Shown here one piece after another: positions 50,946 through 54,032 of a stretch of 64,000 nt of DNA. The notes under the pieces are model-generated. The model worked only from the letters and a program-made list of their open reading frames with translations. It made no database searches and was not told where the DNA came from. The stretch spans positions 248,001 through 312,000 of the forward strand of contig NW_015961958.1 in NCBI RefSeq assembly GCF_000497045.1, written 5' to 3'. The number at the start of each line of letters is the position of its first letter. Position 1 is the first letter of the stretch. Source of the stretch: Kalmanozyma brasiliensis GHG001. Taxonomy: Eukaryota; Basidiomycota; Ustilaginomycetes; Ustilaginales. Made by a program: the position numbers and the translations under genes.

Positions 50946-53900
50946 CTACAAAGCGGCAAAGACCGTCTTAGCCTCGTCCAGCAGCCCCTGGAGCGTCATC
51001 CTGCGCAAGATCCCCCGTCCCTCCGCCTGCTCTGCGGTCATCTGCCTCCCCCTCACCTGCTTCTCCTCATACGGACCATGACATACCACCACCTGACTCT
51101 CCACCTCTCCATCCAGCATCACATCCACCCACCCATACTTCTCCACCGTCTCACCATCCACCCGCATCGCCCCACCCTCCAACTCGACGCGCTTGAAATC
51201 GAACCCCAGCCCCAAGCCGAGATTCTTCGTGTACGCCTCTTTGTGCGTCCACAGACTGAACAACCTTTTCAAACCCTGCTGTTCCGGACAATTCAGCACC
51301 CACGCCGTTTCGCGCGCGGTGAGCGCCATATCCATGGTCTCTACGAAACTCCTTATGCTCTGCTCATAGCGCGGCAGCTCAACGCCCATCGCGTCGATGC
51401 CTACCCGAATGCCGGCGGTGGAAAAGGCAAGGACAACCCAATCTCCGTCATGCGAGATGTTGAAGTCCAGCCCGACGCTGGGCGCTGAGACGAATGGCCG
51501 ACCCTGCGGCGTGACTCCGAATCGCACAGTGGCAGGATCGATGTTGAATCGCGTAGCAAGGAGCAGACGCGGCAGGAGACGCGCAACGAGCGACCGCACG
51601 CGGTCTGGCTGCCGGTAATACTTGAGCACTTTTGCTCGGTCAGCGGCGTTGTGTGCCCCCGGAAGGAGGGTCTCCACAATCTCGCGAAGAGATTCGTCCG
51701 TGAGAAGAGTTGGGTGGGCCGAGATGTCAACGGCCCAGATCTGCAGTGTTGCATCGGTATCGGTAGCAGACGCGGCGTTGTATTCGTCAGTCACGGTCGG
51801 GTCAACGGTTTGCGAGGCAGAAGGGGTGGTGGACTGACCTGATGAACTTCCCGCAGCGTTGGCCGTCGACGAGGTGGCGACACCGCTGACGGCAGTCGTA
51901 ACACTCGCCGCAGTGGACGTGGCAACCTCCTTGGCGAGGATGAGCGCGTCGATGGTGTTGACACGGCAGTCGCGGAGGAAACTCACGAGGTCAGTGCCAC
52001 CTGTTCCCTTTGCGCCGCCGCCGTTGTCCTTCGAGTTGGGATCGAGCAGCGCAGCCGCTTCGGCCTCGGCATCGGCGTGCGCTTTCGCCTTGGCTTTGGC
52101 CACCAAACGTCGGTCGACTTCGAGCTGACCGGTGAATCCACGAGGAAGGGGCGCATAGGCGTCGGGTGGAGAACCACGCGCTTGGGCGACAATGTAGAGG
52201 TAGGCCACCTTCATGTGCTCGTCACGCAGGGCTTTGAGCTCCTTAAGTGCGTTGTCGTAGGCAGCGGGGAGACCCTCGTCGTGCTCCTCGGTCTTGGATT
52301 TGAGCGCCAGGCTGCGGATGGGATGCGGGAGCTCTCGCGGCTGTGCCTCCTCCTCACCATCGCTGTCCGACGCAACAGAGGCAGACATGTCACTGAGGTC
52401 GTCCTCCTCGTCCACGTCGTCGTCGAACGAAACGTTGCGCAGGTGCGACAGGAACGCTCGGTGGTGTCCGGGCATGTAGAGCGACATGCGCTCCATAAAC
52501 GTGGCATCTGCGCCCCTCGCATCGCTCGTTGCAGTCGCAGCGGGACGGTTAAGTCTCTCCTTCCTGCGAGTGTGGTCGACGTCCAAGAAGACATCGATTG
52601 CGTGGATCATCGAGCTCTGACCCGCCGACGGCCCAGAAAAGACACGCTTGACACCTTCCGCGTCCACACCTTCGAAGTGCCATCCCACTTGCTCGCCCTT
52701 GTCCACCGTATCGCTGCCAACGAACCAAGGCCGAATCCCCCAGTAGAAGATCTTTGGGTCGCATCCGTTGCGCACATCGTGCAGGAGCTTGGTCAGATCC
52801 TTGAGCACGACTGCTAGCCTGTTGAGGTACCCAGCGATACGCCTGCGTGCAACGCGATCCGCCACGAACGCCTCGTCCAAACTGACACGCATGAGCTCGA
52901 GCGCCTCGACGCCCCGCGCTTCGATGAGCAGCGAAGTGAAGAAGAAGTGGTGCTCGGACGGCGTTGCTGTGAAGGTCTCGACGATTCGCATGTTGTCCGG
53001 TTCGAGGCCGCGGGAGGCGTCGACGTATTCCCAATTCCACAAGACGGTGGTGGCGTAAGTGAGAACGGGCGGCAAGTCGAGCTTCTGCGAGAGCTGAACC
53101 CAGGGGACGGCGATGGCGGCGGGCACGCGGCGCAGATACTTGCCGGCGAGCTCGTCGACGAGGTCCTGCTCATCTTGGAGCTCCTCGACCGACTTGCGCG
53201 AGAAGACGTTAAGCCAGCTGCGTTGCGGAATCGCAGCGTCGGAGGCTTTAGGCGGTTGGCTGTGGATGTAGAAATGAGCGAGGAAGGAGAGGACGACATG
53301 GCCTCGACGTGCGAAGCGAATGTCGTTGGCGAGCTCTTCGGACAGAGGCAGTACTGGCATCTCACGAAGCGCGCGACGCCAGCGACGGGCGAGAAGGCGT
53401 TGGTGTTGGGTGATGGTGGCACCACCGCCGCCCTGCATAAGGGGGATGCGTTTTGCTTCGTCGAGCGCATTCTCCCACTGCTCAGCATGCACCCCACCGA
53501 GACGCCGGACGGGCGCCTCGGGTGGCAGGAAACCGGAACGAACGTCGACGTCAAAATCGGCAGCAGCAAGCGTAGATGTATCTGGAATGTGCTCGTCGAC
53601 GGTGGAGAAGCCGGCTGGGCGTGGTACTGCATCTGCAAGACGGTCGAGGGGTTGGACGATGTGGCCGAGCGATGACGGCAATGCAGGAATACCAGCACGA
53701 ACTGCTGTCGCTAGCTCTGACAGCGGCTGTGGTGATGAGAATGGCGATGACAAAGCGTCTGCTTCTGATACATTGCTGAGACCAGCGATGGGCATGGATG
53801 CTTCGCTGAAGGTGGATGAGGACGACGAAGAAACTCGTCGCGCGAGGGTTTGCTGTGACGTGCTGGCTGGCTGAGCTTTGTTGGCGCCTCGCTGCTGGGC

Positions 53901-54032
53901 CAAGAAATGATCTGGGGGCACTTCGAAGTACTCTGCCTCATCGTGTGTCTCTGGCCAGACGGGGTAGAAGGTCTTTCTGGGGGAGGCGGAAAGGCGGCTG
54001 GGGCCGGCGCCGTTGTTGAGAGGGATGGTCAT
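50946..54032 (-). CDS. Fusion protein: indoleamine 2,3-dioxygenase + 4'-phosphopantetheinyl transferase
   Basis: One uninterrupted frame of 1028 residues carries two enzymes. Residues about 20-705 are an IDO (Bna2-type), which uses haem to open tryptophan to N-formylkynurenine, the first step of de novo NAD synthesis. Seen: HVVLSFLAHFYIH (245-257), WNWEYVDASRGLEPDNM (332-348), SGPSAGQSSMIHAID (466-480), the haem-ligand region YMPGHHRAFL (519-528) and GTGGTDLVSFLR (676-687). A Ser/Thr/Ala linker (about 705-760) follows. Residues about 762-990 are a Sfp/Lys5-type PPTase with FNISHDGDWVVLA (857-869), RVGIDAMGVE (876-885, Mg site) and WTHKEAYTK (928-936). It would load phosphopantetheine on Lys2, PKS or NRPS carriers. 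The first ATG is 54032; the frame is open to 54191 without another ATG. Insertions occur in the IDO part (45-165 and 535-585, acidic). Confidence 0.92.
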   Translation of the reverse strand: MTIPLNNGAGPSRLSASPRKTFYPVWPETHDEAEYFEVPPDHFLAQQRGANKAQPASTSQQTLARRVSSSSSSTFSEASMPIAGLSNVSEADALSSPFSSPQPLSELATAVRAGIPALPSSLGHIVQPLDRLADAVPRPAGFSTVDEHIPDTSTLAAADFDVDVRSGFLPPEAPVRRLGGVHAEQWENALDEAKRIPLMQGGGGATITQHQRLLARRWRRALREMPVLPLSEELANDIRFARRGHVVLSFLAHFYIHSQPPKASDAAIPQRSWLNVFSRKSVEELQDEQDLVDELAGKYLRRVPAAIAVPWVQLSQKLDLPPVLTYATTVLWNWEYVDASRGLEPDNMRIVETFTATPSEHHFFFTSLLIEARGVEALELMRVSLDEAFVADRVARRRIAGYLNRLAVVLKDLTKLLHDVRNGCDPKIFYWGIRPWFVGSDTVDKGEQVGWHFEGVDAEGVKRVFSGPSAGQSSMIHAIDVFLDVDHTRRKERLNRPAATATSDARGADATFMERMSLYMPGHHRAFLSHLRNVSFDDDVDEEDDLSDMSASVASDSDGEEEAQPRELPHPIRSLALKSKTEEHDEGLPAAYDNALKELKALRDEHMKVAYLYIVAQARGSPPDAYAPLPRGFTGQLEVDRRLVAKAKAKAHADAEAEAAALLDPNSKDNGGGAKGTGGTDLVSFLRDCRVNTIDALILAKEVATSTAASVTTAVSGVATSSTANAAGSSSGQSTTPSASQTVDPTVTDEYNAASATDTDATLQIWAVDISAHPTLLTDESLREIVETLLPGAHNAADRAKVLKYYRQPDRVRSLVARLLPRLLLATRFNIDPATVRFGVTPQGRPFVSAPSVGLDFNISHDGDWVVLAFSTAGIRVGIDAMGVELPRYEQSIRSFVETMDMALTARETAWVLNCPEQQGLKRLFSLWTHKEAYTKNLGLGLGFDFKRVELEGGAMRVDGETVEKYGWVDVMLDGEVESQVVVCHGPYEEKQVRGRQMTAEQAEGRGILRRMTLQGLLDEAKTVFAAL

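Follow-up and report, generated by a model that had tools for sequence, protein, structure and literature searches.

The window analysed here is a 64,000-nucleotide stretch of contig NW_015961958.1 from Kalmanozyma brasiliensis GHG001. On its minus strand, a single frame running from 54032 to 50946 comprises 1028 codons plus a stop codon, with zero internal stops, and encodes an indoleamine 2,3-dioxygenase (IDO) joined to a phosphopantetheinyl transferase (PPTase):

50946..54032, minus strand: IDO-PPTase fusion gene, a single open frame; 17 further full fusions were found among homologues
51948..53564, minus strand: IDO domain, residues 157-695, from Pfam PF01231 and alignment to human IDO1 chains
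51753..51932, minus strand: hypervariable linker, residues 701-760, predicted to be disordered
50949..51746, minus strand: Sfp/AASDHPPT-type PPTase part, residue 763 onward, from PF22624, PF01648 and the match to human AASDHPPT

The preliminary description had claimed one stop-free frame with a complete IDO and a complete PPTase, and the frame check and the Pfam matches confirmed it. The IDO domain matched PF01231 at 387.6 bits over profile positions 2-411 of 412, and the C-terminal part contained both halves of the two-part PPTase fold, AASDHPPT_N (PF22624, residues 797-870, 52.3 bits) and ACPS (PF01648, residues 876-951, 42.6 bits), all three over the curated cut-offs. The PPTase part also matched human AASDHPPT (2cg5/2byd) with an E value of 2.2e-17, and residues 763-1027 were predicted as strands and helices in blocks with pLDDT values of 77-96. 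The assignment of the PPTase fold rests on sequence and these pLDDT values. The IDO-PPTase fusion is strongly supported.

IDO converts tryptophan into N-formylkynurenine, the first step toward NAD, and Sfp/Lys5-type PPTases activate Lys2 and NRPS/PKS-like carrier domains. All motifs quoted previously (YMPGHHRAFL, GTGGTDLVSFLR, FNISHDGD, RVGIDAMG and WTHKEAYTK) are present in the fusion. YMPGHHRAFL aligns with YMPPAHRNFL of human IDO1, whose proximal haem histidine is H346, and FYWGIR sits where human IDO1 has FFSVLR. The proximal histidine is kept in all 54 IDO homologues, and an FYWxIRP-like arginine region is found in most of them. Among the 18 fused PPTase parts, [FY]N[IL]SHD and WTxKEA[YF]TK are invariably present and G[AIV]D[AV]M occurs in 17. 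By-eye comparison with the signature GxD...(W)xxKE(A/S)xxK, as printed in PMC5516258, located its elements in GIDAM and WTHKEAYTK; there, an alanine after GID appears solely in the bacterial form. Judged from these motifs, the fused IDO is of the His-bearing type and a predicted tryptophan dioxygenase, and the fused PPTase is of the Sfp/Lys5 type and a predicted activator of Lys2 and NRPS/PKS-like carriers.

A search for proteins with both domains returned all three Pfam domains in one protein for 18 of the 54 homologues (including this one), down to 46% identity and across three orders of Ustilaginomycetes. The other 36 lack the PPTase domain, and several IDO relatives carry the name "related to BNA2". 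Besides K. brasiliensis, the fusion occurs in 7 of the 8 named Ustilaginomycete species among these homologues, and in all seven the gene model is a full-length fusion. Ustilago maydis and Testicularia cyperi, which appear with the gamma IDO, are not named among the fusions, where cluster representatives may hide them. In Malassezia, Sympodiomycopsis, Microstroma and Parajaminaea, IDO and PPTase are separate proteins. The earlier view that the two are separate genes holds for these sister groups but not for most of the named Ustilaginomycetes.

The fused IDO parts fell on one side of a branch (91/98) in the IDO tree, which included 12 outside sequences and gave warnings for long branches and odd composition. 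Likewise, the fused PPTase parts fell on one side of a branch (79/59) in a tree of Ustilaginomycotina with nine hand-picked outside sequences, seven from named species and two metagenomic. A first, wider PPTase tree, in which the 18 fused parts were combined with 20 sequences hand-picked from 86 proteins, including long-branched agaric and other outgroups, did not recover the fusions as one group (4 changes). The IDO tree and the Ustilaginomycotina PPTase tree are compatible with a single origin of the fusion. A 273-residue stand-alone metagenomic PPTase (P0055), whose start is an internal Met, clustered with the fusion of S. reilianum; we take it as a truncated gene call. We considered an ancestral neighbourhood of the two genes, which found no support in contig sizes, a proxy only: IDO and PPTase lie on contigs of different size in Sympodiomycopsis, Microstroma and Malassezia sp. 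CBS 17886, and on contigs of equal size (4,562,156) solely in Parajaminaea. Our analysis found no molecular reason for joining IDO with PPTase.

Profile searches of the genome found the fused PPTase to be the sole Sfp type. PF22624 returned one place at E<=1, the fused PPTase itself, and PF01648 returned three, of which the remaining two are a ketoacyl-synthase/ACPS frame (FAS-like) and an AcpS-like domain. Similarly, the fused IDO is the only IDO found in this genome with the haem-ligand histidine; a search of the genome for TDO found none, and 3-HAO was found. The idea, raised in the preliminary description, that the fusion co-localises two essential activities fits these results, because neither another Sfp-type PPTase nor another His-bearing IDO was found in the genome. 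Coupling of tryptophan flux to carrier activation, also suggested there, is a hypothetical role. Possible clients of the PPTase include LYS2 (TIGR03443, 1713 bits) and 12 PP-binding places, not necessarily all of them.

In the region joining the two enzymes, residues 682-760 have pLDDT values below 50, and the linker sequence varies freely outside two islands, SGQS and [T/A][D/N]. GQS is the commonest 3-mer across the linkers (17 of 18), followed by SSS and SSG (16 each). The patterns were picked after inspection of the linkers. SSGQ, present in 15 of the 18, averaged 0.29 linkers over 2000 shuffles and never exceeded 3; [TA][DN], found in all 18 at 10-27 residues upstream of the acceptor, averaged 6.7 in the shuffles and reached 13 at most. 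When 11,025 two-by-two residue patterns were ranked by excess, [AT][DN] (18 versus 8.5 expected) came 7th, behind six patterns that are themselves versions of [AT]D or [TR]D. What is new here is that in K. brasiliensis both conserved islands encode strings resembling splice signals, a set that the preliminary description overlooked. A candidate 5' site (AG^GTCAGT, the caret marking the cut), branch point (CTGAC) and 3' site (CTGCAG^) stand in register:

51833..51840, minus strand: candidate 5' splice site AG^GTCAGT, part of SGQS, cut between 51839 and 51838
51786..51790, minus strand: candidate branch point CTGAC, within T-D; its branch A precedes the intron end by 46 nt
51741..51838, minus strand: candidate alternative intron of 98 nt, predicted junction 51839^51740
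51727..51729, minus strand: TGA stop in the spliced frame, from in-silico splicing

The candidate intron ends at the earliest YAG that lies over 30 nt past the donor, and its length leaves a remainder of 2 when divided by 3. In-silico removal of the 98 nt gave a 735-residue IDO ending in SSSDLGR before the stop. A gene model from Ustilago loliicola (P0015) ends in ...IPSSDLGR, a junction product matching the one predicted for the window. This U. loliicola model may itself be an ab-initio prediction. Over the 18 fusions, the predicted introns measure 98-197 nt, and the glutamine at the acceptor is kept in 16 (R in P0019, H in P0008), conservation of the signals across these proteins being measured at the protein level. 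The donor is near consensus, no polypyrimidine tract is obvious, and two further introns, located by eye in this genome, contain CACTGACGAA and TACTGACACC, resembling GACTGACGAA here. Two in-frame acceptors within 400 nt of the same donor were also considered; their use would cost 78 and 118 codons, among them those that open the PPTase domain, and was judged non-functional.

Start codons bear on how the PPTase could be produced. Between residues 607 and 882 the K. brasiliensis fusion contains no Met in frame, so a PPTase-only mRNA from an internal promoter, which had been named as an observation that would overturn the fusion, is unlikely here, and we rejected an internal PPTase-only start in this genome. 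In 13 of the 18 fusions, an in-frame Met lies past the first linker residue and before the FNISH motif, exactly at the PPTase start (MQVWAI) in P0011 and P0012; for these 13 a PPTase-only product is possible, which slightly lowers the odds of the splicing explanation given next.

These features suggest a splice switch. The flexible linker would tether the two domains and also act as a weak intron. Retention of the intron would allow read-through translation into IDO-PPTase, and splicing (SSG^...LQ^IWAVD) would shift the frame into an immediate stop and yield the 735-residue IDO alone. Because the PPTase part lacks its own start codon in this genome, unspliced mRNA would be its easiest source, so that splicing would set the amount of PPTase relative to IDO. 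We consider it somewhat more probable than the opposite that one bifunctional gene gives IDO-PPTase by intron retention and IDO alone by splicing. The broader reading, that the linker serves as coding sequence and, in the same stretch, as a regulated and conserved intron whose splicing sets the supply of the sole Sfp-type PPTase against tryptophan breakdown throughout the class, we regard as almost an even call. Actual splicing of the intron, function of both products and selection on their ratio are what we infer here from sequence. The "single polypeptide" of the preliminary description is probably half of the story, because the splice signals, being conserved, point to IDO alone as a predicted second product.

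A simpler explanation is a constitutive fusion, in which one mRNA encodes one bifunctional protein of 1028 residues, SGQS is a protein motif, for example a site of docking or modification, and the resemblance to splice signals is coincidental. The full-length models in seven of the eight other named species and the predicted disorder of the linker agree with this explanation, as does the chance frequency of the donor 8-mer AGGTNAGT in the window (5 versus 4.66 expected), which means that only its conservation counts. However, a protein motif at SGQS leaves unexplained the second island [TA][DN], the SSDLGR with which the U. loliicola model ends, and the use of uncommon codons where the signals lie. 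With codon frequencies from three window genes including the fusion gene, and signal codons examined in K. brasiliensis alone, the probability of AG^GTCAGT given SGQS is 0.015, and the usage of ACT and of GTT, the latter needed for the spliced stop, is 0.09 and 0.11. We consider a constitutive fusion rather unlikely.

Splicing could also be unproductive, with the early stop and long 3' end leading to mRNA destruction or reflecting noise, in which case both activities would fall together and an IDO-only protein would be irrelevant. The spliced stop does lie ~780 nt upstream of the normal stop, and a published paper deals with UPF1, an NMD factor, in U. maydis (PMC4749658). Yet the IDO domain is complete in the spliced product, which stops within ~40 residues of the end of the stand-alone Ceraceosorus IDO (P0024) and as such should be an active enzyme; we judge unproductive splicing improbable. 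Wrong domain gains through annotation errors are the subject of a published survey (PMC10158824), but an erroneous merger of two genes is scarcely credible for a frame that is open in the DNA itself, is also open in 17 other proteins with variable linkers, and contains a PPTase part without its own start codon. An assembly error or a missing stop was likewise rejected, as very unlikely, because the same two-domain protein recurs in 17 further homologues.

The fusion resembles fungal IDO/BNA2 (PF01231) in its whole IDO domain and proximal histidine and differs in the attached C-terminal PPTase. It shares both fold halves and the motifs with human AASDHPPT (2byd, 2cg5), Lys5 and Aspergillus fumigatus PptA. 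All three are free-standing PPTases; unlike these Sfp-type enzymes, the PPTase here is the tail of an IDO without its own start codon. According to the part of PMC5516258 consulted, PptA has no redundant counterpart for most of the secondary metabolites detected and for siderophores, and it also has a role in lysine biosynthesis. In Gag-Pol the ratio of products is set by frameshifting; for IDO-PPTase it would be set by splicing. SKI7/HBS1 (and PTC7) are described in the consulted part of PMC3597508 as single fungal genes giving two proteins through alternative splicing, experimentally tested. As predicted here, SKI7/HBS1 gives two functional products from one gene by a conserved splice choice, but its products are forms of related proteins, whereas here splicing would remove a whole unrelated enzyme. 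Retained introns of U. maydis average 148 nt and tend toward degenerate signals (PMC2219887, in part), unlike the near-consensus donor here. PMC2219887, on U. maydis intron retention, gave no hit for dioxygenase, tryptophan or pantetheinyl, and PMC13208730, on Ustilaginaceae gene clusters, none for indoleamine or tryptophan. The preliminary description knew of no account of this architecture, and our search of literature listings found none; the Yuasa and Ball papers on Basidiomycota IDO (cited in PMC4191572), outside its scope, could mention it.

The sole Sfp-type PPTase found in this genome is linked, as a protein and as a transcript, to the enzyme with which tryptophan catabolism and NAD synthesis begin. 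If the split by splicing is real, it would also warn that gene prediction can drop the PPTase, which may have happened in the U. loliicola model. If the PPTase supply indeed depends on this gene, an "IDO" knockout in such fungi would also abolish the activation of lysine and siderophore synthesis, confounding genetics. The conserved intron-like joint may let the cell pick both enzymes or the first only, and the splice split, if true, would be a clean case of one gene producing one or two enzymes through intron retention.

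The preliminary description had placed two enzymes in a single frame, and we recovered that frame intact, as follows.

50946..54032, minus strand (read from 54032 to 50946): open frame of 1028 codons plus stop, indoleamine 2,3-dioxygenase (IDO) followed by an Sfp-type phosphopantetheinyl transferase (PPTase)

The frame can be extended 159 nt upstream of its ATG, to a TTG start, and the start Met lies at about the same place in several relatives examined. Three Pfam domains exceed their cut-offs, namely IDO (residues 157-695, 387.6 bits), AASDHPPT_N (797-870, 52.3 bits) and ACPS (876-951, 42.6 bits). 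By sequence search, the closest solved relatives of the first and second parts are human IDO1 (best E 1.8e-27) and human AASDHPPT (E 2.2e-17), respectively. In the predicted structure, most of the IDO core and residues 761-1028 (pLDDT blocks 77-96) are confidently modelled, residues 682-760 fall under 50, and the whole model has a mean pLDDT of 67.5 and a pTM of 0.51. This pattern fits two domains joined by a flexible tether.

When we searched for both domains in one protein, as had been proposed, IDO, AASDHPPT_N and ACPS occurred together in 18 of 54 homologues, K. brasiliensis included. The named species are Sporisorium reilianum, Ustilago trichophora (two rows), Melanopsichium pennsylvanicum, Moesziomyces aphidis, Pseudozyma flocculosa, Thecaphora frezii and Violaceomyces palustris. 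Because Thecaphora belongs to Urocystidales, Violaceomyces to Violaceomycetales and K. brasiliensis to Ustilaginales, the fusion is present in three orders of Ustilaginomycetes. The 36 homologues without a PPTase include Ceraceosorus, Acaromyces, Parajaminaea, Microstroma, Tilletiaria, Jaminaea, Sympodiomycopsis and Malassezia, and Ustilago loliicola (P0015) is the sole named Ustilaginomycete among them. Neither U. maydis nor Testicularia cyperi has a fusion under its name among the 54 homologues, whose rows are 90%-identity clusters; both have rows with the other IDO type in the search with the second IDO of K. brasiliensis. A PPTase profile search built from six fused PPTase parts, for which the fusions were too long to qualify as candidates, returned 86 PPTases, mostly of stand-alone size. 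Their named species include Sympodiomycopsis, Parajaminaea, Microstroma, Tilletia and Malassezia and no Ustilaginomycete. In trees of hand-picked rows, every fused part fell on one side of a branch for IDO (91/98, with long-branch and composition warnings), as did the fused parts for PPTase (79/59) when only Ustilaginomycotina and two metagenome rows were used; that grouping was absent from a wider PPTase tree containing long outgroups. A single origin in the stem of Ustilaginomycetes is the simplest reading of these sequences and is moderately supported.

Other unusual architectures were encountered. Two Wallemia ichthyophaga proteins (P0049 and P0051; 900 and 930 aa) combine IDO with a cyclopropane-fatty-acid-synthase-like domain (PF02353), representing either a further IDO fusion particular to this lineage or a product of gene-model merging. 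A Phenoliferia sp. protein (P0218, 854 aa, annotated partial) carries IDO with an amidohydrolase domain (PF04909), a family that includes ACMSD of the kynurenine pathway. The stand-alone PPTase of Microstroma glucosiphilum (P0060) has about 200 extra N-terminal residues without a further listed Pfam domain.

The inventory of other PPTase genes, also called for earlier, gave three PF01648 matches in the 17.27-Mb genome.

ketoacyl-synthase/ACPS frame of FAS type
fusion gene
L003:13-2838 (G000:C21, about 194997-197822): AcpS/Ppt2-like domain at residues 497-603 of a lysophospholipase-like frame, with a PLA2_B match at 134-297 and, judged by eye, a PLA2-like look behind that match

All three PPTase domains found are thus parts of larger frames. 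Since PF22624 matches only the fusion gene, even at E up to 1, and given the nature of the other PF01648 matches, the fusion is the only Sfp-type PPTase found in the genome. Possible clients are LYS2 (TIGR03443, 1713 bits across 1064 residues) and 12 PP-binding places, of which one 4144-codon frame bearing an AMP-binding domain holds four. An in-frame Met lies between the first linker residue and the FNISH motif in 13 of the 18 fusions, directly at the PPTase start in P0011 and P0012, so that a PPTase-only protein is conceivable in those rows. K. brasiliensis is one of the five rows without such a Met; its fusion has no in-frame AUG between residues 607 and 882, and the PPTase is therefore not easily made apart from the fusion.

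The linker, from IDO end to PPTase start, varies freely in sequence and spans 66 to 121 residues over the 18 fusions, except for two islands. Mean identity to the K. brasiliensis protein is 0.19 at residues 701-725 and 0.43 at 726-750, where the motif sits. The first island consists of SSGQS or a close variant; GQS, in 17 of 18, is the most widespread linker 3-mer, followed by SSS and SSG (16 each), and SSGQ occurs in 15 of 18 linkers, where 2000 shuffles gave a mean of 0.29 and a maximum of 3. The second, T/A then D/N, lies 10-27 residues ahead of the PPTase start and occurs in 18/18 (shuffle mean 6.7, maximum 13). Both patterns were framed only after the linkers had been inspected; among 11,025 same-shape patterns, [AT][DN] ranks 7th by excess (18 vs 8.5 expected), and the six patterns above it are variants of [AT]D and [TR]D.

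At the DNA level, the first island of K. brasiliensis reads TCA GGT CAG TCC and contains AG|GTCAGT, which resembles a consensus 5' splice site, and the second reads ACT GAC, containing CTGAC, a candidate branch point that fits the consensus. The PPTase start is CTG CAG|ATC TGG, and this CAG is the first YAG to occur beyond 30 nt from the donor. With codon usage taken from three window genes, the fusion gene among them, the chance of SGQS being written with the donor-required letters is 0.015, and the frequencies of ACT and of GTT, maker of the spliced stop, are 0.09 and 0.11. In-silico removal of the 98 nt between donor and acceptor cuts yields a 735-residue protein ending SSSDLGR, then a stop. 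Two other introns, in the genes of 3-hydroxyanthranilate dioxygenase (3-HAO) and a Rab-like protein, with boundaries placed by eye, carry CACTGACGAA and TACTGACACC; the candidate linker intron has GACTGACGAA. The donor string alone is at chance level in the window (5 vs 4.66 expected), and the acceptor glutamine is absent in P0008 and P0019.

The database entry of U. loliicola, P0015, is IDO only, with 785 residues and the C-terminal end IPSSDLGR, the end expected in that species from the same junction. Passages of the paper describing this genome (PMC9603552) report annotation without RNA-seq for two sister genomes and leave the method used for U. loliicola unstated, so P0015 may be a gene prediction only. 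As no PPTase is named for U. loliicola among the 86 either, the annotation may have lost the PPTase through a spliced model.

The IDO profile matches two places in the genome. The second IDO, a relative of the gamma type, lies on the same contig as the fusion gene (L005:1306-3024, G000:C11); by eye, its N-terminus resembles a mitochondrial presequence. It has Gln at the proximal haem-binding His position, as do all 19 best rows of its search, itself included (P0141-P0159, of which P0159 is named gamma type); among the 120 rows listed, 50 have Gln and 7 have His, the other 63 not fitting the residue pattern. The second IDO may thus act other than in tryptophan dioxygenation. Passages of PMC4191572 describe low-activity IDOs (gamma in Pezizomycotina, c in Basidiomycota) and state that fungi have no TDO. 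No TDO was found in the K. brasiliensis genome, and 3-HAO is present. Together with the Gln, this makes the fused IDO the strongest candidate for the enzyme that supplies NAD.

No paper on an IDO-PPTase fusion appeared in the search listings of the literature collection used. The nearest precedents, as far as passages of the two papers go, are SKI7/HBS1, a fungal gene from which splicing yields two proteins (PMC3597508), and the prevalent intron retention in U. maydis (PMC2219887). Each domain is of a known family; what is new is the fusion architecture and the predicted linker intron. Most likely, judging from sequence, the gene works by two products, in which unspliced mRNA would give IDO-PPTase and spliced mRNA IDO only. 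By analogy with PptA of A. fumigatus, as described in passages of PMC5516258, the fused PPTase is presumably required for lysine, and in K. brasiliensis it is hard to make otherwise, so intron retention should occur; the conserved signals suggest that splicing also occurs. A modifier acting once per carrier domain would be needed in small amounts and IDO in larger ones, and we infer that a leaky intron would set the ratio of PPTase to IDO.
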